From Clostridia bacterium (GTDB taxonomy: Bacteria; Bacillota; Clostridia; Oscillospirales; Acutalibacteraceae), in contig JAFZOL010000051.1 in the NCBI GenBank assembly GCA_017550625.1, forward strand, positions 1 to 49,278: 49,278 nucleotides of DNA, written 5' to 3'. A program made the translations under genes and the position numbers. A model generated the notes under the pieces. That model was not told the DNA's origin. It made no database searches and saw only the letters and a program-made list of their open reading frames with translations. The number at the start of each line of letters is the position of its first letter. Within the stretch, counting starts at the first letter, position 1. This document shows, in pieces, positions 7,801-30,118 of this stretch.

Positions 7801-7849
7801 TTGCGCACACCCCTGTGCGCCCCAATAAAAAAATTAAGGAGAAATCAAT

Positions 7850-9293
<1,444 letters not shown>

Positions 9294-9301
<8 letters not shown>

Positions 9302-11428: not shown

Positions 11429-11429
11429 A

Positions 11430-11467
11430 AAAACGCCGGAGGCTTATCTCAAGCCCCCGGCGTTTCT
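11430..11467 (+). terminator. Terminator after the LarA-like gene
   Basis: An AAACGCCGG...CCGGCGTTT stem with an inner GGCTT/AAGCC helix begins directly after the stop codon. The T-run is short. Confidence 0.75.
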
Positions 11468-11472
11468 CATTC

Positions 11473-11504
11473 AATTCTGTATTTTGTATTTTGCATTTTG
11501 CATT
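11473..11504. repeat. Inverse-oriented AATGCAA heptamer repeat
   Basis: AATT followed by CTGTATT, TTGTATT, TTGCATT, TTGCATT: the complement of the array at 7577-7608, sharing its AATT cap. Confidence 0.85.
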
Positions 11505-11531
11505 CTTCCTACGCGGCCCTGCCGCGTGCCC

Positions 11532-11562
11532 GTGCACCCGTGCACCCGCCGCCGCAGGCGGC
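11532..11562. repeat. GTGCACCC octamer repeat plus GCCGCC hairpin
   Basis: Two GTGCACCC copies (11532-11547), preceded by a partial GTGCCC, then a GCCGCC/GGCGGC hairpin. This is the third instance of the octamer-plus-hairpin module. Confidence 0.75.
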
Positions 11563-11567
11563 TATAT

Positions 11568-12542: not shown

Positions 12543-12579
12543 GGTTTCTCTCCCTTCACGGGGACGTTTCATAAACAAA

Positions 12580-12623
12580 AAACCGTCCGTTCTCCCTTAT
12601 TTTAGAGAACAGGCGGTTTTATG
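12580..12623 (-). terminator. Terminator of the membrane-protein gene
   Basis: A long imperfect stem (AAACCGTCCGTTCTC against GAGAACAGGCGGTTT) ends in a T-run on the - strand, 25 bases past the membrane-protein stop. Confidence 0.75.
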
Positions 12624-12646
12624 TCAAGCCTTTTTTGCCGTGCCGT

Positions 12647-13222
12647 TTAGTTCTTCGCGGCGTGTTTTTTCATCATGTGCTTTTTATAGAGCGTGAGCAG
12701 CACGCTGCAACCGAGGTTGAGGATGAGGCACCCCAGAGCGAGCGAAACGAGGTTGCTCGGCAGGTCCGCCACGGCCTCTCCGGATTTGACGAACGACACG
12801 ATGAAATAGCAGAAGCCGACGTTGTTGAACAGGAAGGGAAAAATGGGCTGCAGGAGGATCAGCAGGGCGATCGACACGATCAGCAGCAGCGAGAGGGCCA
12901 CGAGCTTCGAGAGCCCCGCGCCCATCAGCAGCGGCACGCCCTTGATCACGCCCGCGGCGATCACGAGCCCCACGGCGCCGCCGAACAGGGTGGTCAGAAA
13001 GCGGTCGCGGTAGCTCAGCTCTTCCTGCATGAAGAACACGGTCACGCTCAAAAAGAACGACCAGTTGATGATCTCGATCCCGCCGAAGTGGGTCAGCTCG
13101 TGCGTGTGCAGCACCTGATAGATCACGTTCCACAGGATGATCCACAGGAACACGATCACAAGGCCCAGCATCTTGGCTTTTTTCGGTTTGTTAAAGAATT
13201 TCAGCGCGTGCGCGTTTTCCAT
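12647..13222 (-). CDS. Multi-pass membrane protein of unknown function
   Basis: A 191-residue integral membrane protein with about five hydrophobic segments: 18-36 (LGLVIVFLWIILWNVIYQV), about 55-70, 80-105, 110-135 and 155-180. The N-terminus is short and lysine-rich and the C-terminus ends KKHMMKKHAAKN, so both ends are probably cytoplasmic. No catalytic motif or transporter signature was recognised. The start has AAAGGAG ahead of it and is preferred over an upstream ATG at 13255. It is transcribed away from the large branched-chain acid block. A lone histidine-rich HTHELTHFGG segment lies between the first two helices. Confidence 0.6.
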   Translation of the reverse strand: MENAHALKFFNKPKKAKMLGLVIVFLWIILWNVIYQVLHTHELTHFGGIEIINWSFFLSVTVFFMQEELSYRDRFLTTLFGGAVGLVIAAGVIKGVPLLMGAGLSKLVALSLLLIVSIALLILLQPIFPFLFNNVGFCYFIVSFVKSGEAVADLPSNLVSLALGCLILNLGCSVLLTLYKKHMMKKHAAKN

Positions 13223-13614
13223 AAAAACGCTCCTTTCATATTTCAATGCGCCCATCTTATCATGTTAAAATCGGCCCTGTCAACGCTTTGGCGCGATCCT
13301 CTACAAAGGGCCCGAAACTTGCTTTTCCGTCGCCCTGCCGCGCGGATTCTGCGTTTTCTCCGACACCCCGCTCTTGTTTTGTCGCGGACCAAACGCGCCC
13401 GCGTTCAAAAAACGGCAGATTCCCCCGTTTTTGACGGTCTCGCCGCCGTTTTTGCCGCGCCTTTATATCAATTATTTCTATTTTTAATAAAAAACAGAAA
13501 AAAGATGTGGATTTACCCGAAAAGATGTGTTATAGTTATTCTGATTTTCTATACCGCGTTTCGCCCCCGTTTTCCGGGTCCGGCGAATTTACGCGGCGTT
13601 CGGAGGCAGAGAGT
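13223..13614. other. Divergent intergenic region before the branched-chain acid block
   Basis: This 392-base gap holds no convincing gene. CAAAAAACGG/CCGTTTTTG (13406-13433) can form a hairpin with T-rich ends in both directions. An AT-rich patch at 13465-13505 is followed by a weak promoter-like pair TGGATT/TATAGT (13508-13513, 13531-13536; 17-nt spacer). GGAGGC lies 8-13 bases before the next ATG. No T-box motif like that at 20055 was found here. Confidence 0.5.
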
Positions 13615-15027
13615 ATGAAAACGGTACAACTCAGCGACGTCACCATGAAGCGCGCGCCCCAGCCGGGTGCCGAGGGCCTTACGTTTCGCGAAAAGCTCGA
13701 GCTTGCGCGCCTGCTCGACGGCCTCGGCGTGCCGTCGGTCGAGGCGCCCCCGGTCGAGGACCGGCGCACCGACGCGTTGCTGCTCAAATCCCTGTCCGGC
13801 GCGTTATCGCAGGCTTCTCTCGTCGTCACGGTCCCGGCGGGCGACCCCGAGGCGATAGACTCTCTCTGGGCGTGCCTCAGAGAGGCCAAAAAGCCCCGCC
13901 TGCAGGTCAGCCTCCCCGTGTCCACAGTCGGTATGGAATACCTCTGCCACAAAAAGCCCGACGCCATGCTCGCCTTCATTTCCGAAAACGTGGCGGCCTG
14001 CCGGGCGAAATGCCCCTCGGTCGAATTCTGCGCCGAGGACGCCGGCCGCGCCGAGCCCGAATTCCTGCGCGCGGCCTTCGCCGCCGCCGTTGAGGCGGGG
14101 GCTTGTGTCATCACCTACTGCGACTCCGCGGGCGACCGCCTGCCCGAGGAGCTTTACAAGGCCGTCTCCGCCGTCCGCGAGGCCTTTCCGGACGTCAGGC
14201 TCGGCGTGCGCATTTCCAACGACGTCTACATGGCGGACGCCGGCGCGGTCTACGCCGTCAGAGCGGGCGCGGACGAGATCAAGGTCGCGGTCGTCGGCAG
14301 CGAGCTGACGTCCCTCAAGCGCTTCGCCGCCGTGCTCAAAGCGCGGGGCGAGGAGCTCGGCGTGACCTCGGATCTCAGAATGACCGAGCTCAACCGCACC
14401 GTGGGGCAGATCGAGCGGCTCGTCAAGCGCTCCCGCCCCAAGACCTCGCCGTTTGAGGACGGCGTGCGCCCCTCCGACGAGGGCTTCTCGCTCAACGCCT
14501 CCGACGACGCCGCCGCCATCCGCCGCGCGGCCGAACGCCTCGGCTATTCGCTGACCGAAGAGGACGAAAAGCGCGTCTACGCGGCGTTTCTGCAGGTCGC
14601 GGACAAAAAGGGCAGCCTTTCCGACAAAGAGCTCGACGTGCTGATCGCCACCTCGGCCATGCAGGTGCCGCCCACCTACACGCTCGAGAGCTACGTGATC
14701 AATTCGGGCAACCGCATCACCTCCACGTCTCACGTGCGGCTGAGGCGCGGCGATGAGATCGAGGCGGGCGTGTGCCTCGGCGACGGCCCGATCGACGCCT
14801 CGTTCCTCGCGATCGAGCAGATCGTGGGCACGCATTACGAGCTCGACGACTTCCAGATCCGCTCGGTCACCGAGGGGCGCGAGGCCATGGGCGAGGCCGT
14901 GGTGCGGCTCGTCAGCGGCGGCAAGCTCTACGCCGGGCGCGGCATCTCCACCGACATCGTGGGCGCCAGCATCCAAGCGTACGTGAACGCTTTGAACAAG
15001 ATTCTTTTTGAGGAGAACGACGCATGA
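13615..15027 (+). CDS. Catalytically degenerate 2-isopropylmalate synthase-like protein
   Basis: A 470-residue homolog of the LeuA/homocitrate synthase family. An HMGL-like barrel (about 1-265) is followed by a linker and a well-kept LeuA allosteric domain (about 355-470: GDGPIDASFLAIEQIVG, YAGRGISTDIVGASIQAY). The active site is not kept. The usual TLRDGEQ reads TMKRAPQ (residues 9-15), losing the metal-binding Asp, and the usual HxHND reads RISND (199-203), losing both metal histidines. FCAED and CDSAGDRLPEE show the barrel is otherwise alignable. The start at 13615 has GGAGGC upstream. Its stop overlaps the next start (ATGA). It may act as a leucine or valine sensor or an altered enzyme. 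Confidence 0.75.
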   Translation: MKTVQLSDVTMKRAPQPGAEGLTFREKLELARLLDGLGVPSVEAPPVEDRRTDALLLKSLSGALSQASLVVTVPAGDPEAIDSLWACLREAKKPRLQVSLPVSTVGMEYLCHKKPDAMLAFISENVAACRAKCPSVEFCAEDAGRAEPEFLRAAFAAAVEAGACVITYCDSAGDRLPEELYKAVSAVREAFPDVRLGVRISNDVYMADAGAVYAVRAGADEIKVAVVGSELTSLKRFAAVLKARGEELGVTSDLRMTELNRTVGQIERLVKRSRPKTSPFEDGVRPSDEGFSLNASDDAAAIRRAAERLGYSLTEEDEKRVYAAFLQVADKKGSLSDKELDVLIATSAMQVPPTYTLESYVINSGNRITSTSHVRLRRGDEIEAGVCLGDGPIDASFLAIEQIVGTHYELDDFQIRSVTEGREAMGEAVVRLVSGGKLYAGRGISTDIVGASIQAYVNALNKILFEENDA

Positions 15028-17501
15028 GGCTTTCATTTTCCACCCGCGGGCGCTTCGGCGGAAACTGGCAGGACCAGATCCGTTTGGCGCTCGAAAACGG
15101 CTTCTCGGGCGTCGAGGTCTACGACGCGTATAAGGACGCGTCCCTCGTGGGGCCGGGGGCCCCGCTGTCGCCCGACGCCGCCCTGCTCACGCTCCGGCAG
15201 CTGCGCGAGCGCGGCCTTTCGATCCCCGTGCTCGACTCCTCGGTCGATTTCGCCCTCGAAACGGACGAAACGGCAGCGGCGATCTCGTCGCTTCTCTCTC
15301 TCACGGCGCTTTTGCAGACGCCGAACGTGGCGGTGCGCACCGACTGCGGCGACCCCGAAAAGGTCGAGGCATCGCTCAGCCGCCTGCTGCCCGAGGTGAA
15401 GAAGGCGGGCGCTGTGCTGCTCATCAAAACGAACGGCGCGTTTTCGGACACGGCGAAGCTCCGCGCGCTGCTCGACGCCTTCGCGTGCGACGAGCTGGGC
15501 GTATTGTGGGACGTGCACCATCCCTACCGCGACTGCGGCGAAATGCCGGACGAAACGATCCGCAACCTCGGCGCCTACGTGCGCCACGTCCACCTCAGGG
15601 ACTCGCTCGACCGCGACACCTACGCCCTCGTGGGCGAGGGCTCCATGCCGATCCCCGACGTGATGCGCGCGCTCTCGAGCATCGACTACATGGGCTTCAT
15701 CTCGCTCGAGTGGAAGCCCGAATGGATGCCGGACCTGCCGTTCCCGGACGTGATCCTGCCGCATTTCGAAAACTACATGACGCGCTTTTCCTCCACCAGG
15801 GGCAAGAAAAAGGCGCTTTATCCGAACCACGACGGCACGGGCGAATACGTGTGGAAAAAGGACGAGCTCATCGACCTCACCTTCCCGCAGGTGCTCGACC
15901 GCATGGCCGAGGAATTCCCCGACCAATACTGCTTCAAATACACCACGCTCGACTACACCCGCACCTACCGCGAGTTCCGCGAGGACGTGGACGCCTTCGC
16001 CCGCGCCCTCGTGTCGCTGGGCGTGCGCCCGGGCGCGAAGGTCGCCGTGTGGGCCACCAACGTCCCGGCGTGGTACATCTCGTTCTGGGCGGCCACGCGC
16101 ATCGGCGCGGTCCTCGTCACCGTGAACACCGCCTATAAGATCCACGAGGCGGAGTATCTGCTGCGCCAGTCCGACACGCACACCCTCATCATGATCGAGT
16201 CGTGCCTCGACTCCGACTACCGCGCCATCGTCAACGAGCTCTGCCCCGAGATCGCCTCGGCCAAGCCCGGGCAGGCGCTGCACTGCAAGCGGCTGCCGTT
16301 CCTTCGCAACGTGATCACGGCGGGCTTCCGCATGCCCGGGTGCCTCACGTTCGACGAGGCCATGGCGCGCAAGGACCTCGTGTCCGAGCGCGAGACCGCG
16401 CGCCTCGCTTCTCTCGTGCGCCCGTCGGACGTTTGCAACATGCAGTATACCTCCGGCACCACGGGCTTCCCGAAGGGTGTAATGCTCACGCACTACAACG
16501 TGGTCAACAACGGCAAGTGCATCGGCGACCGCATGGGCCTCTCCACGGCTGACCGCATGATGATCCAGGTGCCCATGTTCCACTGCTTCGGCATGGTGCT
16601 CAGCATGACCGCCTCGATGACCCACGGCGCCACCATGTGCCCCATGCCCTATTTCTCCGCCAAGAGCTCGCTCTCGTGCGTCACGCAGGAGAAGATCACC
16701 TGCTTCAACGGCGTGCCCACCATGTTCATCGCCATGTTCAACCACCCCGATTACCGCAAAACCGATTTCTCGCACATGCGCACGGGCATCATGGCGGGGG
16801 CGGGCTGCCCGCCCGAGCTCATGCGCCGCGCCGCCGACCCGGACGAGATGCACATGACCGGGATCGTCAGCGTCTACGGCCAGACCGAATCCTCGCCCGG
16901 CTCCACGATGACGGCGTGGACCGACCCGCTCGATATGCGCACCGAAACCGTGGGCTACGCCTTCCCGCACGTGCAGTGCAAGATCGTGGACCCCGCCACC
17001 GGCGAGATCTTGCCGGACGGCGAAAACGGCGAGTTCTGCTCGAAGGGCTACAACACGATGAAGGGCTATTACAAAATGCCCGACGCCACGAAGGACGCGG
17101 TTGACGCCGACGGGTGGCTGCACTCCGGCGACCTTGCCTGCCGCGCGCCCGACGGCACCTACCGCATCACCGGGCGCATCAAGGATATGATCATCCGCGG
17201 CGGCGAGAACCTGTACCCCAAAGAGATCGAGGAGTTCATCCTCACGCACCCCTTGGTGTCCGACGTGCAGGTCATCGGCGTGCCCGACAAACGCTACGGC
17301 GAAGAGGCGCTGGCGGCCGTGATCCTCAAAGAGGGCGCCGTTCTCACTGAGCCCGAGCTGCGCGAATACATCGTCAAATCGCTCGCGCGCCACAAAGTGC
17401 CGAAATACATCGAATTCACGGACGCGTTCCCCATGAACGCCGCCGGCAAGATCCTGAAATACAAAATGCGCGAAGACGCCGTGAAGCGTCTCGGCCTGTA
17501 A
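15024..17501 (+). CDS. Fusion of a xylose-isomerase-like TIM barrel and an acyl-CoA synthetase
   Basis: An 825-residue fusion. Residues 1-255 are a sugar-phosphate isomerase/epimerase-type barrel with Asp163/His166 (LWDVHHPYR), His190 (HVHLRD) and Glu229 (ISLEW). The strand that normally supplies a metal-binding Glu reads LLIKTNG with Lys135. Residues 280-825 are an AMP-forming acyl-CoA ligase: YTSGTTGFPKG (475-485), VYGQTESSPG, the HSGD motif, GRIKDMIIRGGENLYP, and the acyl-adenylation Lys809 in NAAGKILKYK. The ligase part resembles medium-chain fatty acyl-CoA synthetases. ATGA coupling to the LeuA-like gene and 19 bases to the next ligase make one operon. The reaction joining the two halves is unknown. 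Confidence 0.85.
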   Translation: MRLSFSTRGRFGGNWQDQIRLALENGFSGVEVYDAYKDASLVGPGAPLSPDAALLTLRQLRERGLSIPVLDSSVDFALETDETAAAISSLLSLTALLQTPNVAVRTDCGDPEKVEASLSRLLPEVKKAGAVLLIKTNGAFSDTAKLRALLDAFACDELGVLWDVHHPYRDCGEMPDETIRNLGAYVRHVHLRDSLDRDTYALVGEGSMPIPDVMRALSSIDYMGFISLEWKPEWMPDLPFPDVILPHFENYMTRFSSTRGKKKALYPNHDGTGEYVWKKDELIDLTFPQVLDRMAEEFPDQYCFKYTTLDYTRTYREFREDVDAFARALVSLGVRPGAKVAVWATNVPAWYISFWAATRIGAVLVTVNTAYKIHEAEYLLRQSDTHTLIMIESCLDSDYRAIVNELCPEIASAKPGQALHCKRLPFLRNVITAGFRMPGCLTFDEAMARKDLVSERETARLASLVRPSDVCNMQYTSGTTGFPKGVMLTHYNVVNNGKCIGDRMGLSTADRMMIQVPMFHCFGMVLSMTASMTHGATMCPMPYFSAKSSLSCVTQEKITCFNGVPTMFIAMFNHPDYRKTDFSHMRTGIMAGAGCPPELMRRAADPDEMHMTGIVSVYGQTESSPGSTMTAWTDPLDMRTETVGYAFPHVQCKIVDPATGEILPDGENGEFCSKGYNTMKGYYKMPDATKDAVDADGWLHSGDLACRAPDGTYRITGRIKDMIIRGGENLYPKEIEEFILTHPLVSDVQVIGVPDKRYGEEALAAVILKEGAVLTEPELREYIVKSLARHKVPKYIEFTDAFPMNAAGKILKYKMREDAVKRLGL

Positions 17502-17520
17502 CGCACCCCGGAGGGACCCT

Positions 17521-19776
17521 ATGACAACCACAGAAATGCAGAAAATGCGCGAGGTCGCGCTCAGAATCCGCGAAATGCGCGAGATCACGGGCCTTACGCG
17601 CGCCGAAATGGCCCAGAAGGTCGAGGTCACGCCCGAAGAATACGACGCCTACGAAAGCGGATCGGTGGACTTTCCGTTCACCTTCATCCACAAGTGCGCC
17701 CTCGTGTTCGGCATCGGCATCACCGACCTGCTCGAGGGCAAAAGCGCGCACCTGTCGTCCTACACCGTCACCCGCAAGGGCCACGGCCTTGAGACCGCGA
17801 AAGAAGACGGCATCGAGATCCGCGACCTTGCCCCCATGTTCCGCAAAAAGATCGCCGAACCCTACTGGGTGCGCTATGAATACGATCCCGCGTTGCAGGA
17901 TAAGCCCATTCATTTGGCGAAGCACTCGGGGCAGGAGTTCGACCTCATCATCTCCGGCCGCCTCAAGGTGCAGGTCGGCGACAACGTCGAATACCTGAGC
18001 GAAGGCGACAGCATTTATTACAACTCCTCCACGCCCCACGGCATGATCGCCGTGGACGGCCGCGAATGCCTGTTCGTGGCGGTGGTGCTGCCGGGCGCCG
18101 ACGACGCCCCCACGCGCGACACCCTGATCCCCGCCCGCTATTCGGGCCGCAAGTTCATCTCGTCCGCGTTCATCTCCTGCGGCGAAAACGAAAACGGCTA
18201 TCCGCTCTCGGTCGAGCTGCACCAGCCCGACACCTTCAACTTCGCCTTCGACGTGGTCGACGCGCTTGCAAAACGCGAGCCCGAAAAGCTCGCCATGCTG
18301 CACGTGTCCGACGACGGGTCCGAGCGCCGCTTCACGTTCAACGACATGAAGCGCGCGTCGAACCAGTGCGCCAACTATTTCAAGAGCCTCGGCGTCAAAA
18401 AGGGCGACCGCGTGATGCTCGTGCTCAAGCGCCACTATCCCTTCTGGTTCGCCATCCTCGGCCTGCACAAGCTCGGCGCCGTGGCGATCCCGGCCACGAA
18501 CCAGCTCCAGGCGCACGATTTCGAATACCGCTTCAACGCCGCGGGCGTCAGCACGATTTTGTGCACCGCCGACGGCGACGTCGCCGCCCAGGTCGAGCTC
18601 GCCGAAAAGACCTGCCCCACGCTGGTGCGCAAGCTCATCGTCGGCGGCTCCCGCCCGGGCTGGAAGGATTTCGACGCCGAATACCCGCTCTATTCCACGC
18701 ATTTCTACCGCGACGACGACACCGCCTGCGGCGACGATCCGCTGCTCATGCTCTTCACGTCCGGCACCACCGGCTACCCGAAGATCGCCGTGCACACGCA
18801 CAAATACCCGCTCGCGCACTACATGACCGCGAAATACTGGCACGGCGTGAGCGACGAGGGGCTGCATTTCACGATCTCCGAAACCGGCTGGGGCAAGGCG
18901 CTGTGGGGCAAGCTCTACGGCCAGTGGATGTGCGAGGGCGCGATATTCGTCTACGATTTCGACCGCTTCGACGCGTCGAAGATTCTGCCGATGTTCGAAA
19001 AATACCATATCACCACGTTCTGCGCCCCGCCCACGATCCTTCGCATGATGGTCAAGCAGGACCTCTCGAAATACGATTTCTCGTCCGTCGAGCACATGAC
19101 CACCGCCGGCGAAGCGCTCAACCCCGAGGTCTACCGCCAGTTCGAAAAGGCCACCGGCATCCAGATCATGGAGGGCTTCGGCCAGACCGAGACCACGCTC
19201 GCCATCGGCAACTTCTTCGGCGGCACGCATAAGATCGGCTCCATGGGCAAGCCCTCGCCTCTTTACGAAGTCACCCTGCTCGACCCCGACGGCAAAGAGG
19301 TGCCCGACGGCGAGGTGGGCGAGATCTGCATCCGCGAAAACGCCGCCTGCGGCCTGTTCTCGGGCTATTATCTCGACGACGAGCGCACGCGCGAAGTGCG
19401 GCACGACGGCTGGTATCACACCGGCGACACCGCTTGGCGCGACGAGGATGATTTCTACTGGTACGTCGGCCGCGTGGACGACGTGATCAAGTCCTCGGGC
19501 TACCGTATCGGCCCGTTCGAGATCGAGTCGGTCATCATGGAGCTGCCTTACGTCCTCGAGTGCGGCGTCTCGGCAGCCCCGGACGAAACGAGGGGCCAGG
19601 TCGTCAAGGCCTCGGTCGTGCTCGTGCCCGGGGTCGAGGGCACCGAGGAGCTCAAAAAAGAGATCCAATCTTACGTCAAATCCCACACCGCGCCCTACAA
19701 ATACCCCCGCATCGTCGTCTTCCGCGACTCGTTGCCCAAAACGGTCAGCGGCAAGATCCAGCGCGCGCTGCTTTGA
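17521..19776 (+). CDS. XRE-cupin-acyl-CoA synthetase fusion, paralog 1
   Basis: A 751-residue three-part protein. Residues 12-65 form an XRE helix-turn-helix (LRIREMREITGLTRAEMAQKV...EEYDAYESG). Residues 115-190 form a cupin (HSGQEFDLIISGRLKV, GDSIYYNSSTPHGMIAV). Residues about 225-751 form an AMP-forming acyl-CoA synthetase of the ACSM/butyryl-CoA-ligase type with FTSGTTGYPK (412-421), GFGQTET, YHTGDTAW, GRVDDVIKSSGYRIGP and Lys745 in TVSGKIQ. The enzyme domain looks intact. It starts at ATG behind GGAGGG. A DNA-binding, ligand-sensing and acid-activating protein could sense its own substrate; that is inference. Confidence 0.85.
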   Translation: MTTTEMQKMREVALRIREMREITGLTRAEMAQKVEVTPEEYDAYESGSVDFPFTFIHKCALVFGIGITDLLEGKSAHLSSYTVTRKGHGLETAKEDGIEIRDLAPMFRKKIAEPYWVRYEYDPALQDKPIHLAKHSGQEFDLIISGRLKVQVGDNVEYLSEGDSIYYNSSTPHGMIAVDGRECLFVAVVLPGADDAPTRDTLIPARYSGRKFISSAFISCGENENGYPLSVELHQPDTFNFAFDVVDALAKREPEKLAMLHVSDDGSERRFTFNDMKRASNQCANYFKSLGVKKGDRVMLVLKRHYPFWFAILGLHKLGAVAIPATNQLQAHDFEYRFNAAGVSTILCTADGDVAAQVELAEKTCPTLVRKLIVGGSRPGWKDFDAEYPLYSTHFYRDDDTACGDDPLLMLFTSGTTGYPKIAVHTHKYPLAHYMTAKYWHGVSDEGLHFTISETGWGKALWGKLYGQWMCEGAIFVYDFDRFDASKILPMFEKYHITTFCAPPTILRMMVKQDLSKYDFSSVEHMTTAGEALNPEVYRQFEKATGIQIMEGFGQTETTLAIGNFFGGTHKIGSMGKPSPLYEVTLLDPDGKEVPDGEVGEICIRENAACGLFSGYYLDDERTREVRHDGWYHTGDTAWRDEDDFYWYVGRVDDVIKSSGYRIGPFEIESVIMELPYVLECGVSAAPDETRGQVVKASVVLVPGVEGTEELKKEIQSYVKSHTAPYKYPRIVVFRDSLPKTVSGKIQRALL

Positions 19777-19809
19777 TCGGTGCGATTGTATAAAAAATAA
19801 TTATTTATA

Positions 19810-19838
19810 TTGACTTTATCATTTGTTGGTGCTATAAT
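19810..19838 (+). promoter_or_regulatory. Promoter of the T-box transcript
   Basis: TTGACT (19810-19815) and TATAAT (19833-19838) are separated by 17 nt. This near-consensus promoter places the RNA start at about 19845, at the head of the T-box leader. Confidence 0.85.
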
Positions 19839-19844
19839 CTGTTT

Positions 19845-20107
19845 CGATTTCATCCAAAGGCTGTAACGAAGAGGTCAGCGCGAAGGACGGGCCAAGAGAG
19901 CCGGCGGCAGGTGTGAGCCGGCGCCGAGCCCGCGCTGAGGTCGCTTTTGAGCCGGAGAGAAGAAAGGGGATACCCCGAGTAGAGCTCTCCCGATTTCGCC
20001 GCGTTAAGGCGCAGGGAGCGATCCCGAAGGGGCGGCAGACTGCCGCAATTTGAGTGGTACCGCGGGCTTTTGCCCGTCTCAAAGTGTTCTTTGAGGCGGG
20101 CTTTTTT
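19845..20107 (+). promoter_or_regulatory. T-box riboswitch, probable valine specifier, with terminator
   Basis: The leader has a T-box stem I with AGAGAG and GGCAGGTG-type conserved elements (19895-19920). The antiterminator sequence TGGTACCGCGGG is at 20055-20066 and a strong terminator at 20072-20107 (13-bp stem, six T). AAGAG and CTTTT close the specifier loop and GCGCG/CGCGC lies above it. By analogy with glyQS, where one purine separates specifier from stem, the specifier is GTC at 19940-19942 (valine). The bulge base T in TGGT matches discriminator A73, as in tRNA-Val, and argues against serine. The T-box itself is near certain; valine is probable. Confidence 0.85.
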
Positions 20108-20134
20108 CTACCGCGGCGGAAAGGACGGTTTCTT

Positions 20135-22429
20135 TTGGAAAAACTGACCGGGCTTGATTACAAGATCATGGAAATGGCGCTGCGCATCCGCGAGCTGCGC
20201 GAGATCACGCGCTTCACCCCCGCCGAAATGGCCGAGAAGACCGGCGTTTCGGTCGAGGAGTATCTGAGCTGCGAAAACGGCGAAAGCGACCTCAACTTCG
20301 CGTTCATCTACCGCTGCGCCTTGGCGTTCGGCGTGGACGTGACCGACATCATCGAGGGCGTGAGCCCCACGCTGCGTTCCTATACGCTCACGCGCGCGGG
20401 CGGCGGGCAGCGCATCGACCAGGCGCACGGCATGGAATACTATAACCTCGCCGCGTCGTTCCTAAACCGCATCGCCGAGCCGCTTTACGTGCACTCCACG
20501 TTCTCCGAAGAAGCGCAGCACAAAGATATCCAGCTCACGTCCCACGCGGGGCAGGAGTGCGACATCGTGATCACCGGCCGCCTCATGGTGCAGGTCGGCT
20601 CGCACAAAGAAGTCCTCGGCCCCGGCGACAGCATCTATTACGATTCCTCCACCCCGCACGGCATGATCGCGGTCGGGGGCGAGGACTGCCGTTTCTACGC
20701 CATCGTGCTCAACCCCACGGGCGAGCCGATCCCGGAGCTCACCCCCGCCAAGCTCATCCCGAACGCCGAGCGCACCGTGCGCCGCCCCGACGACGGGGGC
20801 GCCGTCTGGCGGCAGTTCGTGGACGTGGAAGAGGACGAGCACGGCACGCCGCTCTCGATCCAATTCAAAAACGCGGACCGCTTCAACTTCGGCTTCGACG
20901 TGGTGGACGCCATCGCCGCCAAGGCCCCCGAAAAGCTTGCGATGCTCCACGTCGCGGCGGACGGCACGGAGCGGCGCTACACCTTCAACGACATGAAGCG
21001 CGCCTCGAACCAGTGCGCGAACTACTTCAAGAGCCTCGGCGTGAAAAAGGGCGACCGCGTGCTGCTGGCGCTCAGGCGCCGGCAGGAGTTCTGGTTCGCC
21101 ATCCTCGGCCTCAACAAGCTCGGCGCGATCGCCATCCCCGCCACGAGCCAGCTGCAGGCGCACGATTTCGAATACCGCTTCAAGGCCGCGGGCGTCACGG
21201 CGGTGGTCTGCACCGCGAGCGACGACACCGCCCACCAGGTCGACCTCGCGCTCGAAAGCTACGACGGCATGAAACACAAGCTGCTCGTCGGCGGCACGCG
21301 TGAGGGCTGGCGCAGCTTCGACGAAGAATTCCCGCTCTATTCGGCGCATTTCTACCGCGACGACAATTCCCCCTGCGGCGAAGACCTCATGCTCATGTAT
21401 TTCACCTCCGGCACCTCGGGCTACCCCAAGATCGCCGCGCACAACCACAAATACCCGCTCGGCCATTTCCACACCGCCCATTACTGGCACGAGGCCGATC
21501 CCGACGGCCTGCATTTCACGATCTCCGACACCGGCTGGGCCAAGGCCATGTGGGGCAAGCTCTACGGCCAGTGGCTGTGCGAGGCCGCCACGTTCGTCTA
21601 CGATTTCGACCGCTTCGACGCGTCGAAGATCCTGCCGATGTTCGCGAAATACCACATCACCACGTTCTGCGCCCCGCCCACCATGCTGCGCATGATGGTG
21701 AAGCAGGACCTCTCGAAATACGATTTCTCGTCCGTGAGGCACATGACCACGGCGGGCGAAGCTTTGAACCCCGAGGTCTACCGCCAGTTCGAAAAGGCCA
21801 CGGGCCTCCAGATCCTCGAGGGCTTCGGCCAGTCCGAGACCACTATGGTCATCGGCAACCTCACCGGCGCGCCGCATAAGATCGGCTCCATGGGCAAGCC
21901 CGTGCCGACCTACAAGGTCCGCCTTATCGATCCCGACGGCAAAGACGTGCCGGTCGGCGAGGTCGGCGAGATCGTGATCGACATCACGGGCGGTATGCCG
22001 CCGGGCCTCGCGGTCGAATACTACGGCGACCCCGAAAAGACCGCCGAAACGTGGCGCGACGGTTTCTATCACACCGGCGACACCGCGTGGCGCGACGAGG
22101 ACGGCTATTTCTGGTACGTCGGCCGCGTGGACGACGTGATCAAGTCCTCCGGCTACCGCATCGGCCCGTTCGAGATCGAATCCGTCATTATGGAACTCCC
22201 GTACGTCCTCGAGTGCGGTGTCTCGGCCGCCCCGGACGAGACCCGCGGGCAGGTCGTCAAGGCCTCGGTCGTGCTCGTGCCCGGCAAAGAGGGCACCGAG
22301 GAGCTCAAAAAAGAGATCCAGACCTACGTCAAGACCCACACCGCCCCCTACAAATACCCGCGCATCGTGGTCTTCCGTGACTCCCTTCCCAAAACGGTCA
22401 GCGGCAAGATCATCCGCAGCGCTCTGTGA
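20135..22429 (+). CDS. XRE-cupin-acyl-CoA synthetase fusion, paralog 2, T-box controlled
   Basis: A 764-residue paralog of the preceding gene with the same order: XRE helix-turn-helix (about 14-68), cupin (HAGQECDIVITGRLMVQVG, GDSIYYDSSTPHGMIAV) and acyl-CoA synthetase (YFTSGTSGYPK, GFGQSET, YHTGDTAW, Lys758 in TVSGKII). The start is TTG at 20135, nine bases after AAGGA, which gives an N-terminus matching paralog 1; the first downstream ATG at 20168 has no ribosome site. Long stretches near the C-terminus are identical between the paralogs, but paralog 2 has a longer cupin-ligase linker. Expression should rise when the cognate tRNA, probably tRNA-Val, is uncharged. Confidence 0.85.
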   Translation: MEKLTGLDYKIMEMALRIRELREITRFTPAEMAEKTGVSVEEYLSCENGESDLNFAFIYRCALAFGVDVTDIIEGVSPTLRSYTLTRAGGGQRIDQAHGMEYYNLAASFLNRIAEPLYVHSTFSEEAQHKDIQLTSHAGQECDIVITGRLMVQVGSHKEVLGPGDSIYYDSSTPHGMIAVGGEDCRFYAIVLNPTGEPIPELTPAKLIPNAERTVRRPDDGGAVWRQFVDVEEDEHGTPLSIQFKNADRFNFGFDVVDAIAAKAPEKLAMLHVAADGTERRYTFNDMKRASNQCANYFKSLGVKKGDRVLLALRRRQEFWFAILGLNKLGAIAIPATSQLQAHDFEYRFKAAGVTAVVCTASDDTAHQVDLALESYDGMKHKLLVGGTREGWRSFDEEFPLYSAHFYRDDNSPCGEDLMLMYFTSGTSGYPKIAAHNHKYPLGHFHTAHYWHEADPDGLHFTISDTGWAKAMWGKLYGQWLCEAATFVYDFDRFDASKILPMFAKYHITTFCAPPTMLRMMVKQDLSKYDFSSVRHMTTAGEALNPEVYRQFEKATGLQILEGFGQSETTMVIGNLTGAPHKIGSMGKPVPTYKVRLIDPDGKDVPVGEVGEIVIDITGGMPPGLAVEYYGDPEKTAETWRDGFYHTGDTAWRDEDGYFWYVGRVDDVIKSSGYRIGPFEIESVIMELPYVLECGVSAAPDETRGQVVKASVVLVPGKEGTEELKKEIQTYVKTHTAPYKYPRIVVFRDSLPKTVSGKIIRSAL

Positions 22430-22438
22430 GGTGCGCCC

Positions 22439-23248
22439 ATGAAAGTGACGCTCATCCAGCAGGATACCCGCTTCGCGGATCCCGATTATAATTTCACCCA
22501 TATTTCGGCGCTCATCGAAGAGGCGGTCAAAGCCGAGTCGCCCGACGTGATCGTCCTGCCCGAGACCTTCAACACCGGCTTCTTCCCGCGCGAAAACCTC
22601 GCGTCCTTCGCCGACGACGACGGCAAGCGTACCCGTGAGACCATCGGCGCGCTCGCGAAAAAGCACGGCGTGAACGTCGTGGCGGGCAGTGTGGCGAACC
22701 GCCGCGCCGACGGCGTATATAACACCGCCCTCGTTTTCGACCGCGAAGGAAACGAGATCGCCTCCTACGACAAGACCCATCTCTTCACCCCCTCAGGCGA
22801 AGACGACTTCTTCGTCAAAGGCGACCACCTGACCTCCTTCACGCTCGACGGCGCGAAGTGCGGCCTCATCATCTGCTACGATATCCGCTTCCCGGAGCTC
22901 ACGCGCACCCTCGCCCTCGGCGGCATGGACGTGCTCTTCGTCGTGGCGCAGTGGCCCGAGCCCCGCATCGCCCATCTTCTCGCGCTCTCCAAGGCCCGCG
23001 CGATCGAGAACCAGGCCTTCGTCGTCTGCTGCAATTCCTGCGGCAAAGCGGGCGGCACCCAAAACGGCGGGCATTCCTCCGTCCACGACCCGTGGGGCGC
23101 TTTGCTGGCCGTTGCAGGGGCGGGGGAGGAGATCCTCTCTGCGGCCTGCGACCTTACGGTGCTTTCGGGCATCCGCGAATCCATCAACGTTTTCCGCGAC
23201 CGCCGTCCGGCGCTCTACCGTCTCGGCGCGGCCCCGGAGGATATATAA
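22439..23248 (+). CDS. Carbon-nitrogen hydrolase, omega-amidase-like
   Basis: A 269-residue nitrilase-superfamily amidase with the catalytic triad Glu42 (LPETFNTGF), Lys112 (DKTHLF) and Cys146 (IICYDIRFPE). The LPETF, YDKTHLF and CYDIRFPEL motifs are those of omega-amidase (Nit2/YafV type), which hydrolyses 2-oxo-glutaramate or succinamate produced after glutamine-type transamination. The gene begins 9 bases after the T-box-controlled ligase, with its GAGGTG site overlapping that stop codon, and a branched-chain aminotransferase follows. That pairing supports a role in transamination chemistry. It is cytosolic, with no signal peptide. Confidence 0.85.
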   Translation: MKVTLIQQDTRFADPDYNFTHISALIEEAVKAESPDVIVLPETFNTGFFPRENLASFADDDGKRTRETIGALAKKHGVNVVAGSVANRRADGVYNTALVFDREGNEIASYDKTHLFTPSGEDDFFVKGDHLTSFTLDGAKCGLIICYDIRFPELTRTLALGGMDVLFVVAQWPEPRIAHLLALSKARAIENQAFVVCCNSCGKAGGTQNGGHSSVHDPWGALLAVAGAGEEILSAACDLTVLSGIRESINVFRDRRPALYRLGAAPEDI

Positions 23249-23277
23249 AAGCGAAAACCAAAAAAGGAGCATAGATC

Positions 23278-24375
23278 ATGGAACACACCTATCCCGTAAC
23301 CGGAACCACGCATCCCAAACCCCGCCCGACCGACGAAAACAACCTCGGCTTCGGCCTCTATTTCACCGACCACATGTTCCTCATGGACTACGATGAGGGG
23401 CAGGGCTGGCACGACGGGCGCATCGTGCCCTACGCCCCGCTCGAGATCGACCCCGCCTCGTGCGTGCTGCACTACGCGCAGATGATGTTCGAGGGCATGA
23501 AGGCCTACCGCCGTCCCGACGGCAGACTGCAGCTCTTCCGCCCCGACATGAACGCCAAGCGCATGGCGCGCACCGCCGACCGCATGGCCATGCCCGTCCT
23601 GCCGCAGGAGATCCTGATCTCCGCGGTCTCCGAGCTTCTCGACGTGGACAAGGACTGGATGCCCAAGGCGCCCGACACCTCGATGTATATCCGCCCGTTC
23701 ATCTTCGGCAACGAGATCTCGTTCTCGGCGATGGCGGCCAAGCACTACACGTTCGCGATCATCCTCGCGCCCACCGGCGCTTATTACGCCTCCAACACCG
23801 GCAAGCTCGGCACCTCGCGCATCTACGTGCAGGATGAATACATCCGCGCTGCGCAGGGCGGCACGGGCTTCGCGAAGGTCGGCGGCAACTACGGCGGCGC
23901 CATGCGCGCCACCGAGGTCGCAAAGCAGTTCCACTGCAAGGACGTGCTCTGGCTCGACGCCCGCGACCACAAATACGTCGAAGAGATCGGCACCTCGAAC
24001 GCCTTCTTCCGCATCGGCGACGAAGTCATCACCGCCCCGCTCGACACCGGCACCATCCTGCCCGGCGTCACGCGCGACTCCGTGATCCAGCTTCTGAAAA
24101 AATGGGGCGTGAAGATCACCGAGCGCAGGCTCTCGATCGACGAGCTGCTCGCCGCGCAGAAGGACGGCTCCCTTAAGGAGATCTTCGCCTCCGGCACCGC
24201 TGCCGTCATCGCGGCCATCGGCTGCCTCAACGTCAAGGGCGTCGACTATCCGGTCGCCGACGGCGAGGCGGGCGAGATCGCCACGCGCCTGTATAACGAC
24301 CTCTACGGCATGCAGACCGGCAAGGTCGAGGACTATATGGGCTGGACCTGGCCGCTCGACATCACGGTCGATTGA
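23278..24375 (+). CDS. ilvE: Branched-chain amino acid aminotransferase
   Basis: A 365-residue fold-type IV PLP enzyme of the longer (class II, eukaryote/Gram-positive) BCAT group. It exchanges amino groups between Val, Leu or Ile and 2-oxoglutarate. The Schiff-base lysine is Lys200 in GFAKVGGNYGG. YAQMMFEGMKAYR, the EEIGTSNAF cofactor loop (GTG-loop equivalent) and the FASGTAAVI phosphate-binding turn are present. The ATG follows AAAAGGAG. It lies between the amidase and the 2-oxoacid:ferredoxin oxidoreductase genes, so it would supply the branched 2-oxo acids they use, or take them back to amino acids. Confidence 0.93.
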   Translation: MEHTYPVTGTTHPKPRPTDENNLGFGLYFTDHMFLMDYDEGQGWHDGRIVPYAPLEIDPASCVLHYAQMMFEGMKAYRRPDGRLQLFRPDMNAKRMARTADRMAMPVLPQEILISAVSELLDVDKDWMPKAPDTSMYIRPFIFGNEISFSAMAAKHYTFAIILAPTGAYYASNTGKLGTSRIYVQDEYIRAAQGGTGFAKVGGNYGGAMRATEVAKQFHCKDVLWLDARDHKYVEEIGTSNAFFRIGDEVITAPLDTGTILPGVTRDSVIQLLKKWGVKITERRLSIDELLAAQKDGSLKEIFASGTAAVIAAIGCLNVKGVDYPVADGEAGEIATRLYNDLYGMQTGKVEDYMGWTWPLDITVD

Positions 24376-24377
24376 GC

Positions 24378-25037
24378 ATGAAACGCGTCACCCTGTTCTG
24401 CGGGCACTATGGCAGCGGCAAGTCGAACCTCGCCGTCAACTACGCCCTGTACCTAAGGTCGCTCGGCAAAGCCGTCAGCCTCGCGGATATGGATATCGTG
24501 AACCCCTATTTCCGCTCCGCGGACTCGAAAACCGAGCTCGAGGCGGCGGGGGTCACGGTCGTCGCGCTCCCGTTCGCGCGCTCTAACGTCGATCTGCCCG
24601 CCCTGCCGGCCGAGCTCTACGGCCTCGTGCAGCGGCGCGACACGTTCGCCGTCCTCGACGTGGGCGGCGACGACCGCGGCGCGCTGGCGCTCGGGCGCTA
24701 CGTGCCCTATCTCAGGGCGGAAAACGACTATGATATGCTCTTTGTCGTCAGTTTCCGCCGACCTCTCACCCCCACGGCAGAAGACGCCCTCGCTGTGCTC
24801 AGAGAGATCGAGCTCGCGGCGGGCCTTCGCTTCACGGGGCTTGTGAACAACACGAACCTCGGCGCCGAGACCACGGCCGGAACCGTGTTAGACTCTGTCG
24901 CCGAAACGCAGAAACTCAGCGTCCTTGCGGGCCTGCCCGTCGTGATGACGTCGTTCGACCGTCGTCTCGGCGAGCTCCCGGTGCCGTCGCCCTTCCCGAT
25001 GGCGCTGCAGAAAAACGACCCCGCCCGGGGCGCGTGA
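24378..25037 (+). CDS. P-loop (MinD/Mrp/ArgK-like) ATP-binding protein
   Basis: A 219-residue P-loop NTPase. The deviant Walker A motif is GHYGSGKSNLAVNYAL near the N-terminus, followed by a switch segment SLADMDIVNPYFRS and VLDVGGDDRGALALGRY. LVNNTNLG resembles the N/TKxD-type guanine-base motif region but is not a clear match. Such proteins recur between ilvE and vor genes in Clostridia, with no assigned role. The start is taken as the ATG two bases after the ilvE stop; a TTG two codons upstream overlaps that stop. Possible roles are cofactor loading or metal-cluster insertion into the oxidoreductase, inferred from position only. Confidence 0.7.
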   Translation: MKRVTLFCGHYGSGKSNLAVNYALYLRSLGKAVSLADMDIVNPYFRSADSKTELEAAGVTVVALPFARSNVDLPALPAELYGLVQRRDTFAVLDVGGDDRGALALGRYVPYLRAENDYDMLFVVSFRRPLTPTAEDALAVLREIELAAGLRFTGLVNNTNLGAETTAGTVLDSVAETQKLSVLAGLPVVMTSFDRRLGELPVPSPFPMALQKNDPARGA

Positions 25038-25051
25038 AAGGATTTGATCAT

Positions 25052-25258
25052 ATGCCGAAGGTCACGTTCCTCACCGACCGCTGCAAGGGCTGCGGCCTGT
25101 GCGTCTCCGTCTGCCCGCGCGGCATCCTCGCGCTGGATACGGAGCATATCAACAAAAAAGGGCACAACCCCGCGGTGATCACCGACCAAACTAAGTGCAT
25201 CGCCTGCGCGTTCTGCGCCACAATGTGCCCCGACTCGGTCATCACCGTCGAAAAGTGA
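25052..25258 (+). CDS. 2[4Fe-4S] ferredoxin subunit of a 2-oxoacid:ferredoxin oxidoreductase (delta)
   Basis: A 68-residue ferredoxin with two complete cluster motifs, CKGCGLCVSVCP and CIACAFCATMCP. It corresponds to the small delta subunit (VorD/KorD) that carries electrons from the thiamine site to soluble ferredoxin. The start is ATG at 25052 behind AAAGGA; a GTG at 25034 overlaps the previous stop and is less likely. The alpha subunit begins nine bases after it ends. Confidence 0.9.
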   Translation: MPKVTFLTDRCKGCGLCVSVCPRGILALDTEHINKKGHNPAVITDQTKCIACAFCATMCPDSVITVEK

Positions 25259-25267
25259 GGTGGCAAG

Positions 25268-26331
25268 ATGGATAAAAAGGTTCTCATGAAGGGCAACGAG
25301 GCGATCGCCGAGGCGGCGATCCGCGCCGGCTGCCGCCACTATTTCGGCTATCCCATCACCCCGCAGACCGAGCTTGCGGCCTACATGGCCAAGCGCATGC
25401 CCAAGATCGGCGGCGTCTTCCTGCAGGCCGAAAGCGAGATCGCCGCGATCAACATGGTCTACGGCGTCGCTTCCACCGGGCGCAGGGTGATGACCTCGTC
25501 CTCCTCGCCGGGCGTCTCGCTCAAGCAAGAGGGCATCTCTTACATCGCGGGCAGCGACCTGCCGTGCCTGATCGTCAACGTCCAGCGCGGCGGCCCGGGC
25601 CTCGGCGGCATCCAGCCGAGCCAGTCCGACTATTTCCAGGCCACCAAGGGCGGCGGCCACGGCGACTATCATCTCATCGTCGTCGCACCTTCATCCGTGC
25701 AGGAGATGGCGGATCTCACGTCGCTCGCGTTCGACCTCTCCGAAAAATACCGCGTCCCTGCCATGCTTCTGGCGGACGGCACCATCGGCCAGATGATGGA
25801 GCCCGTGGTCCTCTCCGAGCCCCACGACCCCGTCTTCACCGAAAAGGACTGGGCGGTCACCGGCACAAAGGGGCAGCGCGAGCACCACATCGTCAACTCC
25901 CTCTACCTCGTGCCCGAAGAGCTCGAGAAAAAGAACTTCGAGCGCTTCGAGCGCTATCAGGCGATCGAAGACAACGAGGTCCGGTACGAGCGCTTCATGA
26001 TGGACGACGCCGACTACTGCGTCGTGGCGTTCGGCATCGCGGCGCGCGTGTCGAAAAACGCCGTCGTCGAGGCGCGCAAACAGGGCATGAAGGTCGGCCT
26101 CATCCGCCCGATCACCCTCTGGCCGTTCCCGAAACAGGCGCTCGCCGAGGCGGCGAAGCAGGTCAAGGGCTTCCTCAGCGTCGAGCTCTCGATGGGCCAG
26201 ATGGTCGAGGACGTCAGGCTCGCCGTGAACTGCTCGCGTCCCGTGGCGCTGTGCCGGCGCACCGGCGGCATGATCATGTCGCCCGACGAGGTGCTTGACG
26301 CCCTCAAAAAGCTTGCGGGAGGTGCCGAATC

Positions 26332-26335
<4 letters not shown>
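25268..26335 (+). CDS. vorB: 2-oxoacid:ferredoxin oxidoreductase alpha subunit, VorB type
   Basis: A 355-residue pyrimidine-binding/transketolase-type subunit. [16 protein letters not shown] and [24 protein letters not shown] are the signature regions of the VorB/KorA group, which decarboxylates branched 2-oxo acids or 2-oxoglutarate to acyl-CoA with ferredoxin as acceptor. The family call 3-methyl-2-oxobutanoate dehydrogenase fits the neighbouring aminotransferase and acyl-CoA ligases. The ATG follows GAGGTGG, and the stop overlaps the beta start by ATGA. The substrate could also be 2-oxoglutarate; sequence by eye does not settle this. Confidence 0.88.
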
Positions 26336-27086
<751 letters not shown>

Positions 27087-27090
<4 letters not shown>

Positions 27091-27620
27091 CCACTCGCAT
27101 TCTGATCGCGGGCTTCGGCGGGCAGGGCATCCTGTTCGCGGGCAAGTTCCTCGCCAATAAAGGCCTGCTCGAAGGCAGGCAGCTGAGCTGGCTGCCGTCC
27201 TACGGGCCCGAAATGCGCGGCGGCACGGCGAACTGCAGCGTCGTCCTCTCCGACGATCCGGTCGGCTCGCCCATCGTGGACCGGCCCGACGTGCTGATCG
27301 TGATGAACCTCCCGTCGCTCGACAAATACGAAACCGCCGTCGTGCCCGGCGGGGCGGTGTTCGTGGATTCCGCCCTGATCGAGCGGCCTGTCGGCCGCGC
27401 CGACGTCACGGCATATTACATCCCCGCCACGCGCCTCGCGCAGCAAAACGGCGTGCCCGGCCTTGCCAACATGATCATGATCGGCAAGGTCCTGCGCGAA
27501 TGCGGCTTCACGTCCTTCGAGGGCGTCGAAGAAGCCCTTCACAGCGTGGTGTCCGCCAAGCACGCCGATCTGTTCGACGTGAACCTCAAGGCCCTGCGCC
27601 TCGGTTACGAATTCGAATAA
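27087..27620 (+). CDS. 2-oxoacid:ferredoxin oxidoreductase gamma subunit
   Basis: A 177-residue gamma subunit with the family signature [17 protein letters not shown] at the N-terminus and [19 protein letters not shown], the CoA-side segment. It completes the four-subunit ferredoxin-dependent complex. The start overlaps the beta stop. An amidohydrolase gene begins three bases after its stop and is probably in the same transcript. Confidence 0.9.
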
Positions 27621-27622
27621 CC

Positions 27623-28438
27623 ATGAGAAACGGTTTTCGCGTCACGGACGCGCACTGCCACGTCTATCCCGACGCCATCGCCGAGAAGGCGGCGGAGAAT
27701 ACCGGCCGGTTCTATGCCGTCGGGCACGAGCTCGACGGCAAGGTCGGCACGCTGGTCGATGCTTCGCTGAAAGCGGGGGTGGATCACTGCGTCATCCAGT
27801 CGGTCGCCACCACGCCGCGGCAGGTCGAAAGCATCAACCGCTTCATCGCCGCCACCGTCGCCGAAGGGGAGGGCTTCTTCACCGGCCTCGGCGCCCTGCA
27901 CCCCGACAGTGAAAACCGGCGCCGCGACGTCGAGACCCTGATCTCACTGGGCCTCCACGGCGTCAAGCTCCACCCCGAGATCCAGCGCTTCGCCCTCGAC
28001 GAGCCCCGCGCGCTCGAGATCTTTTCCCTGTGCGAAGAATACGGCCTGCCGGTGCTGCTGCACACGGGCGACAAGCGCTACGACTGTTCGAACCCCAACC
28101 GCCTGATCCCCGTCCTCAAACGCTTTCCGGATCTCACGGTCGTGGGCGCGCACCTCGGCGGCTGGTCGATCTGGGACGAAGCCGTCGACGCCCTCGGCGG
28201 GGTGAAAAATCTGTGGTTCGACTGCTCGTCCACCTTCGCGTGGGTCGATCCCCTGCACGCGAAGGATCTCATCCTGCGCCTCGGCGCCGACCGCGTGATG
28301 TTCGGCACCGACTATCCGATGTGGACGCCGAAAACCGAGCTCGATACCTTCCTCTCCCTCGGCTTTTCCGAACGTGATTCCCGCCTCATCCTGTGGGAGA
28401 ACGCCGCCAAAGTCTTCGGCGTCGGCAAAACGGAGTGA
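27623..28438 (+). CDS. TIM-barrel amidohydrolase (ACMSD/2-pyrone-dicarboxylate hydrolase-like)
   Basis: A 271-residue metal-dependent hydrolase of the amidohydrolase_2 type. Metal and catalytic residues are visible as DAHCHVYP (10-17), HGVKLHPEIQRF, LLHTGDKRY, GAHLGGW and the C-terminal MFGTDYPMW Asp. Members hydrolyse lactones or decarboxylate aromatic acids; the substrate here is unknown. It is the last gene of the branched-chain acid block, three bases after the gamma subunit. A perfect CCGCG/CGCGG hairpin without a T-run follows at 28436-28459. Confidence 0.8.
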   Translation: MRNGFRVTDAHCHVYPDAIAEKAAENTGRFYAVGHELDGKVGTLVDASLKAGVDHCVIQSVATTPRQVESINRFIAATVAEGEGFFTGLGALHPDSENRRRDVETLISLGLHGVKLHPEIQRFALDEPRALEIFSLCEEYGLPVLLHTGDKRYDCSNPNRLIPVLKRFPDLTVVGAHLGGWSIWDEAVDALGGVKNLWFDCSSTFAWVDPLHAKDLILRLGADRVMFGTDYPMWTPKTELDTFLSLGFSERDSRLILWENAAKVFGVGKTE

Positions 28439-30110: not shown

Positions 30111-30118
30111 ATCGCCTC

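Follow-up and report, generated by a model that had tools for sequence, protein, structure and literature searches.

The synthesis of branched-chain amino acids from branched short-chain acids in the rumen reportedly rests on isotope and enzyme work. T-box leaders are also known from classical ilv-leu operons, and 2-ketoisovalerate:ferredoxin oxidoreductase (VOR) is better known from amino acid fermentation. Leucine, isoleucine and valine are described as being made in the rumen from isovalerate, 2-methylbutyrate and isobutyrate, respectively (PMC7356843), methanogens as converting 2-methylbutyrate to isoleucine and isovalerate to leucine (PMC10658910), and branched-chain volatile acids as growth factors for ruminococci, dating to 1962 (cited in PMC7356843), that are fed to ruminants (PMC10311502). 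Staphylococcus aureus has an acyl-CoA ligase, MbcS, that activates exogenous isobutyrate and 2-methylbutyrate, and isovalerate poorly (PMC10026030). Here, we analyse a twelve-gene block in a 49,278 bp stretch of DNA from a Clostridia bacterium of the family Acutalibacteraceae (positions 1–49,278, forward strand, of contig JAFZOL010000051.1, assembly GCA_017550625.1; hereafter, the window). We consider it very probable that this block is a starvation-controlled biosynthetic operon that makes leucine, isoleucine and valine from branched short-chain acids by carboxylation. The net chemistry proposed is identical to that of the rumen studies; by contrast with those studies, the system here consists of an operon in which every amino acid has a ligase of its own, together with T-box leaders and a protein derived from 2-isopropylmalate synthase (LeuA). 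A literature search, thin in subscription journals, found no description of an operon for branched-acid use, which is weak evidence of novelty. The pathway chemistry was already described in the 1960s; the new variant, as far as we have seen, lies in the operon, in the T-box control of a separate ligase for each amino acid, and in the protein derived from LeuA.

A preliminary description of the window had reported a twelve-gene block running in a single direction with many ATGA overlaps. Twelve genes are indeed found, all on the plus strand, at 13615–28438, but the run is interrupted at 19777–20134, where a T-box leader lies behind a site resembling a promoter. The ATGA overlaps are real but number three (leuA-like gene/TIM-ligase, vorB/vorA and vorA/vorC); the junction between the aminotransferase and P-loop genes reads TTGA if a TTG start is used. 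The features of the block are:

13615–15027, plus strand: leuA-like gene (leuAx); Pfam LeuA_dimer (PF08502) at 105 bits, positions 2–131 of 131, and HMGL-like at 82 bits
15024–17501, plus strand: TIM barrel (AP_endonuc_2) fused to an AMP-forming acyl-CoA ligase (TIM-ligase), from Pfam and NCBIfam
17521–19776, plus strand: helix-turn-helix (HTH)-cupin-acyl-CoA ligase 1 (AMP-binding); best NCBIfam model MbcS, under its cut-off
19810–19838, plus strand: sigma-70-like promoter TTGACT-17-TATAAT, 5′ of the T-box, from a pattern match alone
19854–20084, plus strand: T-box leader with specifier GUC (valine); Rfam RF00230, 89.1 bits, E 1.6e-18
20072–20107, plus strand: intrinsic terminator, a hairpin and T run that overlaps the T-box antiterminator, from a fold of 20050–20116
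about 20135–22429, plus strand: HTH-cupin-acyl-CoA ligase 2 (AMP-binding), likely start TTG at 20135; best NCBIfam model MbcS, under its cut-off
22439–23248, plus strand: C-N hydrolase, YafV-like (omega-amidase type), accessory; CN_hydrolase at 178 bits
23278–24375, plus strand: branched-chain amino acid aminotransferase (BCAT); exceeds the NCBIfam cut-offs of TIGR01123 and NF009897
24378–25037, plus strand: P-loop protein, weakly NUBPL/ParA-like; ParA at 21 bits against a cut-off of 27.1
25052–25258, plus strand: vorD, ferredoxin subunit with two [4Fe-4S] clusters; Fer4
25268–26335, plus strand: vorB (POR_N and PFOR_II); NF005507 at 566 bits against a cut-off of 399
26332–27090, plus strand: vorA, thiamine pyrophosphate (TPP)-binding subunit; TPP_enzyme_C
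27087–27620, plus strand: vorC, POR gamma subunit; POR at 121 bits
27623–28438, plus strand: Amidohydro_2 protein, accessory; Pfam Amidohydro_2

In the proposed pathway, each of three ligases would activate one acid at the expense of ATP: the TIM-ligase isovalerate (leucine arm), ligase 1 2-methylbutyrate (isoleucine arm) and ligase 2 isobutyrate (valine arm). VorDBAC would act as a carboxylase, joining the acyl-CoAs to CO2 with reduced ferredoxin to give 4-methyl-2-oxovalerate, 3-methyl-2-oxovalerate and 2-oxoisovalerate, and BCAT would aminate these three 2-oxo acids to leucine, isoleucine and valine. Many relatives carry a T-box for the matching tRNA on every ligase unit, such that a shortage of one amino acid would switch on the arm that makes it; a T-box is visible on the valine arm only in the case of the window. 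The leuAx protein, which has the LeuA regulatory domain, would probably report leucine to the adjacent TIM-ligase. Domain searches found the four-subunit layout of VOR, with its TPP and 4Fe-4S domains, in VorDBAC, and VorB scores above its NCBIfam cut-off; unlike VOR as usually described, the enzyme here adjoins T-box-controlled ligases. Elsewhere in the window, at 42043–45841, lie genes for a NuoF-like protein and for NAD(P)H/Fe-S flavoproteins, which might encode a ferredoxin-linked redox complex with a bearing on the supply of reduced ferredoxin.

The sequence between ligase 1 and ligase 2 of the window is a leader of ~360 bases that the preliminary description had not seen; it comprises the promoter-like site, the T-box and a strong terminator. 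The T-box score is slightly below the Rfam gathering score of 93, and the element has the T-box bulge sequence, a specifier codon and a competing terminator. The Rfam alignment and two specifier scripts agree on GUC (valine) as the specifier, and the segment 20050–20116 has a folding energy of -35.1 kcal/mol (z -5.7). Because the GTG at 20054 sits inside the T-box, ligase 2 is more likely to start at about 20135 (TTG).

We also examined 80 loci from named genomes, the best 80 of at least 572 leuA-like relatives; the 572 may include ordinary LeuA because the search patterns lie in a shared domain. By title, most of the genomes come from metagenomes of the ruminant gut or of other guts and belong to Oscillospiraceae or further Clostridia; Bacteroidales, Eggerthellaceae, Coriobacteriaceae and Erysipelotrichaceae also occur, as does one genome labelled Deltaproteobacteria. 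Cultured carriers include Erysipelotrichaceae bacterium NK3D112, whose locus (L140) has leuAx, TIM-ligase, the two HTH-cupin ligases, the P-loop gene, vorD, vorB and vorA before it breaks off, and Bittarella massiliensis GD6, with leuAx and TIM-ligase (L095). The TIM-ligase gene lies 3′ of leuAx on the same strand in 79 of the 80 loci, with a gap of at most 120 bases in 77 and of 169 and 176 bases in two; in the 80th locus, the contig ends there. Of the 80 loci, 34 contain a VorB-like gene whose identity is 69% or higher, and 33 have a BCAT match. The order of leuAx and TIM-ligase in 79 loci, together with the VorB-like gene in 34, argues that the association of these genes is not due to chance.

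T-box leaders in relatives match the predicted arms. An Rfam T-box above the gathering score precedes leuAx in 16 of 20 relative loci (the exceptions are L002, L003, L005 and L016). Ten printed Rfam alignments from those leuAx leaders, read by eye, all have CUC (leucine) as the specifier, as does the L070 leader; ten further printed alignments, partly from the same loci, gave by eye six leucine, two isoleucine and two valine codons, all of them before the gene predicted for that amino acid. When the window and 100 loci were scanned with a pattern, 150 T-box-like leaders were found, of which 72 precede leuAx, 39 ligase 1 and 29 ligase 2, with the other 10 having no block gene behind them. Using a stem I helix rule, the specifier was leucine in 61 of 62 leaders that could be read before leuAx/TIM-ligase, isoleucine in 35 of 37 before ligase 1, and valine in 24 of 28 before ligase 2. 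A first specifier script had favoured a third-base C and misread several leaders of ligase 2 (cupACS2 in that analysis); its counts were 62 leucine among 69 leaders read for leuAx, 38 isoleucine among 39 for ligase 1 (cupACS1), and 17 valine among 28 read for cupACS2. The second rule, from which this preference was removed, was devised after the output of the first script was known, and the reading by eye of printed cmscan alignments is a check independent of both scripts. The RNA switch and specifier logic are like those of classical ilv-leu T-box leaders; here, however, the leaders stand 5′ of ligases of another pathway, with one specifier per branched-chain amino acid. Two loci also contain a Gut-1 RNA (Rfam RF01706), at L008:373–450, where it lies between the T-box and leuAx, and at L068:1296–1371.

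From these leaders, we infer the substrates and the direction of flux. The pathway would run towards synthesis because T-boxes open on starvation and the ligases are AMP-forming, even if the VOR reaction can in principle go either way. The block had been labelled a reversible interconversion system; T-boxes for leucine, isoleucine and valine and AMP-forming ligases point to synthesis, and do not support "reversible" as a description of how the block works. VOR and BCAT are enzymes of the branched-chain catabolic route in fermenters, and the block could instead be catabolic, with imported valine, leucine and isoleucine being transaminated, oxidised by VOR to acyl-CoAs with formation of reduced ferredoxin, and excreted as branched acids; the reversibility of VOR and the failure to find classical synthesis genes in the genome, as in a scavenger, would both fit. 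By contrast, T-boxes for these same amino acids open on starvation, AMP-forming ligases would be expected to spend ATP rather than earn it, and neither a LivK-type binding protein nor a BrnQ importer was found in the window's own genome, where peptide import was not examined. Moreover, genomes with the HTH-cupin ligase have ilvC less often than others but hisD equally often (see below). We therefore regard a catabolic role as very unlikely.

The two HTH-cupin ligases separate according to their predicted amino acids. In a tree of 82 HTH-cupin ligases built by a quick method and labelled from T-box specifiers, 34 isoleucine-labelled rows are separated from 24 valine-labelled rows by a branch whose SH-aLRT support is 100%. 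The remaining 24 rows carry neither label: 16 have no T-box in reach, three have an unread T-box and five were read otherwise (three glutamate, one serine, one asparagine). Ligase 1 of the window is on the isoleucine side and ligase 2 on the valine side; since ligase 1 of the window lacks its own leader, its isoleucine role rests on this tree. MbcS is the best NCBIfam model for both HTH-cupin ligases, with scores of 439 and 427 bits that are below the equivalog cut-off of 850, and the TIM-ligase is nearest to a different NCBIfam model. The poor activity of MbcS on isovalerate fits with a separate ligase for the leucine arm. Unlike S. aureus MbcS, the ligases here have an HTH and a cupin fused N-terminally, and their product would presumably enter amino acids, not lipids. 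The nearness of two ligases to MbcS does suggest another possible role, in which, as with MbcS in S. aureus, fatty acid synthesis would draw on the isobutyryl-, 2-methylbutyryl- and isovaleryl-CoA made by the ligases, and VOR and BCAT would make the same CoAs from amino acids. However, the amino-acid-specific T-boxes and the LeuA-type domain indicate amino acid supply, the VorB and BCAT genes recur across the relatives as counted above, and a lower frequency of ilvC would be unexplained, such that salvage of acids for branched-chain lipids seems to us exceedingly improbable.

The leuAx protein has the same two domains as 2-isopropylmalate synthase, with the LeuA_dimer domain conserved, but lacks the metal ligands and catalytic residues. 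We take the arginine and aspartate of the LRDGEQ motif to be catalytic, with the aspartate binding metal, and the His-x-His motif to be metal ligands of LeuA. Among 110 leuAx sequences, none retains the aspartate, one has the first histidine and one the second, and the arginine is kept in 21, with lysine in its place in 74. Two canonical LeuA sequences from the same order have the arginine, the aspartate and both histidines, and the loss of the active site is also seen against PDB 3ewb. Mean pairwise identity among the 110 sequences is 46% in the barrel and 66% in the LeuA_dimer domain. Judging from its sequence, leuAx is unlikely to be an enzyme of the 2-isopropylmalate synthase kind; rather, it seems to have lost its catalytic function and kept a working regulatory domain, and has probably evolved from an enzyme into a sensor. 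We infer that leuAx binds leucine and that the TIM-ligase is its target because of the adjacency of the two genes and the leucine T-boxes.

The leuAx/TIM-ligase pair also occurs in other gene contexts. A NifJ-cluster protein, a single-chain oxidoreductase, lies 3′ of the pair in ten loci, and L142 has the beginning of such a protein; Pfam was applied to the L142 fragment and to two of the ten, and the rest were placed by clustering. In L116 and L117 (~3500–17500), ilv genes are followed by leuAx, TIM-ligase and a NifJ-type oxidoreductase gene; Pfam identifies the large and small acetolactate synthase subunits and ilvC in L116 and ilvD in L117, and the remaining ilv genes and BCAT were assigned by clustering. 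No leuB was found in the genomes of these two loci, and ilv genes without leuB are as expected if the pair replaces leucine synthesis alone. In L041, two genes with indolepyruvate-type oxidoreductase domains lie 3′ of the pair, and in L042 a member of the cluster of the first of these genes occupies the same place. Behind the indolepyruvate-type oxidoreductase genes of L041 come genes for a PaaK-like AMP-binding ligase and for an ACT-domain pair protein (L041:5729–9828, with clusters also in L042), a group that looks like a set for converting aryl acids to aromatic amino acids. Such a context, and the 46 of 80 loci in which no VorB reaching 69% identity is seen (a contig end shortens many of these loci), would fit a pair that serves a separate purpose, for example aromatic acid activation, and merely adjoins the VOR block. 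We consider this unlikely, given the leucine specifiers before the pair, its LeuA_dimer domain, and the arrangement in L116 and L117.

If the block replaces the classical pathway, the genes of that pathway should be missing. The assembly that contains the window (2.88 Mb, 80 contigs, 97.5% complete) yielded no ilvC, no leuB and no leuC-sized gene; its sole aconitase-family gene has a 769-residue frame, too long for leuC. No true leuA was found across the assembly, where the leuAx query matched only itself, yet the same query matches ordinary LeuA in other genomes. Likewise, no acetolactate synthase was found, with only a weak match of 181 bits, far under the cut-off of 538. The preliminary description had suggested checking whether ilvC, ilvD and leuBCD are missing; ilvC, leuB and a leuC-sized gene were not found, but an ilvD-family gene is present and leuD was not searched for. 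The ilvD-family dehydratase (G000 contig C77, 21638–23329; L060:4639–6330, minus strand) lies beside a gene that looks transporter-like by eye, in a genome without ilvC, and no ilv gene was recognised by eye among its flanking open reading frames; its substrate may be a sugar acid. The genome thus encodes a ligase, a ferredoxin-dependent oxidoreductase and BCAT side by side, and the classical route was not found in it, the genomic picture expected of a carboxylation route. The original proposal that the block carries out carboxylating synthesis of valine, leucine and isoleucine from isobutyrate, isovalerate and 2-methylbutyrate, bypassing the usual route, is supported at the level of the genome and by the T-boxes. 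In the genus, ilvC was found in two of 26 genomes and a near full-length leuA-like gene in 23 of 26. In the two ilvC genomes, G005 and G007, ilvC and ilvD are on short contigs, and are either true genes or contamination.

We then compared gene content across 147 genomes of the order that are at least 90% complete, 48 with a full HTH-cupin ligase and 99 others. The 48 were hand-picked from 65 matches at E ≤ 1e-200 as having an alignment from the N-terminus and at least 55% identity, with one (G161) ending at residue 625; the 17 excluded matches were weaker, truncated or without the HTH-cupin part. ilvC was rarer in genomes with the full ligase (9/48, compared with 67/99; odds ratio 0.11, p 2e-8), and remained so when six excluded genomes were restored to the ligase group (11/54, compared with 65/93). 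leuB was also rarer (17/48, compared with 75/99; p 4e-6), counting the 92 genomes over the family cut-off rather than the 99 at E ≤ 1e-60; for both genes, the counts ignore phylogeny. By contrast, the control gene hisD was found at similar frequencies in the two groups (41/48 and 82/99; p 0.81), which rejects general auxotrophy as the cause of classical gene loss for the group; this rejection does not extend to the genome of the window. Ligase genomes that lack ilvC, 39 in all, span 30 genera and 13 families. As sampled, the window's family includes three full-ligase genomes without ilvC and ten ilvC genomes without a full ligase.

Several observations weigh against a simple replacement of the classical pathway by this block. 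ilvC is kept in nine of the 48 ligase genomes, and leuB over the cut-off in nine of the 39 ligase genomes without ilvC; leuB in those nine would retain its function if isobutyrate were the source of 2-oxoisovalerate. Three further ligase genomes (G051, G161 and G165) have a weaker leuB-family match that was not counted. Among 50 leuAx genomes tested, a subset of the 80 loci, ten have a leuB match, nine of them over the cut-off; since this is so, and five of the ten have Bacteroidales or Bacteroidetes names, replacement is not universal. In the window's own genome, an ilvD-family gene persists on another contig, and no hisD match was found, so the organism may need histidine and be an auxotroph in part. 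A Peripla_BP_6 protein is present in 12 of 16 same-genus genomes searched. Lastly, no T-box was found 5′ of leuAx in the window at E up to 1, nor at E up to 0.01 before leuAx in the relatives L002, L067, L069 and L072; hence, the leucine role of the window's leuAx/TIM-ligase pair rests on relatives. We put at slightly better than even the chances of a broader proposal, in which a three-armed route with its own T-box per arm replaces ilv/leu across gut anaerobes, the dead LeuA is a leucine sensor subunit that exerts feedback control on the isovalerate ligase, and the HTH-cupin parts are sensors on the other two ligases.

The preliminary description had named an omega-amidase; the protein is a C-N hydrolase, but its nearest model, PRK10438 (YafV, which we take to be an omega-amidase), scores 138 bits, under the cut-off of 249. 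This gene was found in eight of the 80 loci. The Amidohydro_2 protein has a match in six of the 80, four of these at 26–39% identity. The P-loop protein has a GHxGSGK motif that is invariant in 27 aligned sequences, including that of the window, and our guess is that it might serve Fe-S maturation of VOR. Outside the block, the window encodes an F420-0:gamma-glutamyl ligase-family protein (391–1581, plus strand), a GGGtGRT-family protein (2503–3522, minus strand), and an MBOAT and DHHW/AlgX-like pair of a type associated with polysaccharide O-acetylation (29004–31522, minus strand).

If our interpretation is correct, the block would provide a genetic basis for the long-known rumen pathway. Under the broader proposal, gut bacteria would rely on the branched acids of their neighbours for three amino acids, which would explain at the level of genes why branched acids are growth factors. 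The block yields testable genes, with the T-box codons naming the predicted substrates, and would make it possible to recognise bacteria that live by cross-feeding on branched acids. It would also correct models that class such genomes as auxotrophs for branched-chain amino acids.

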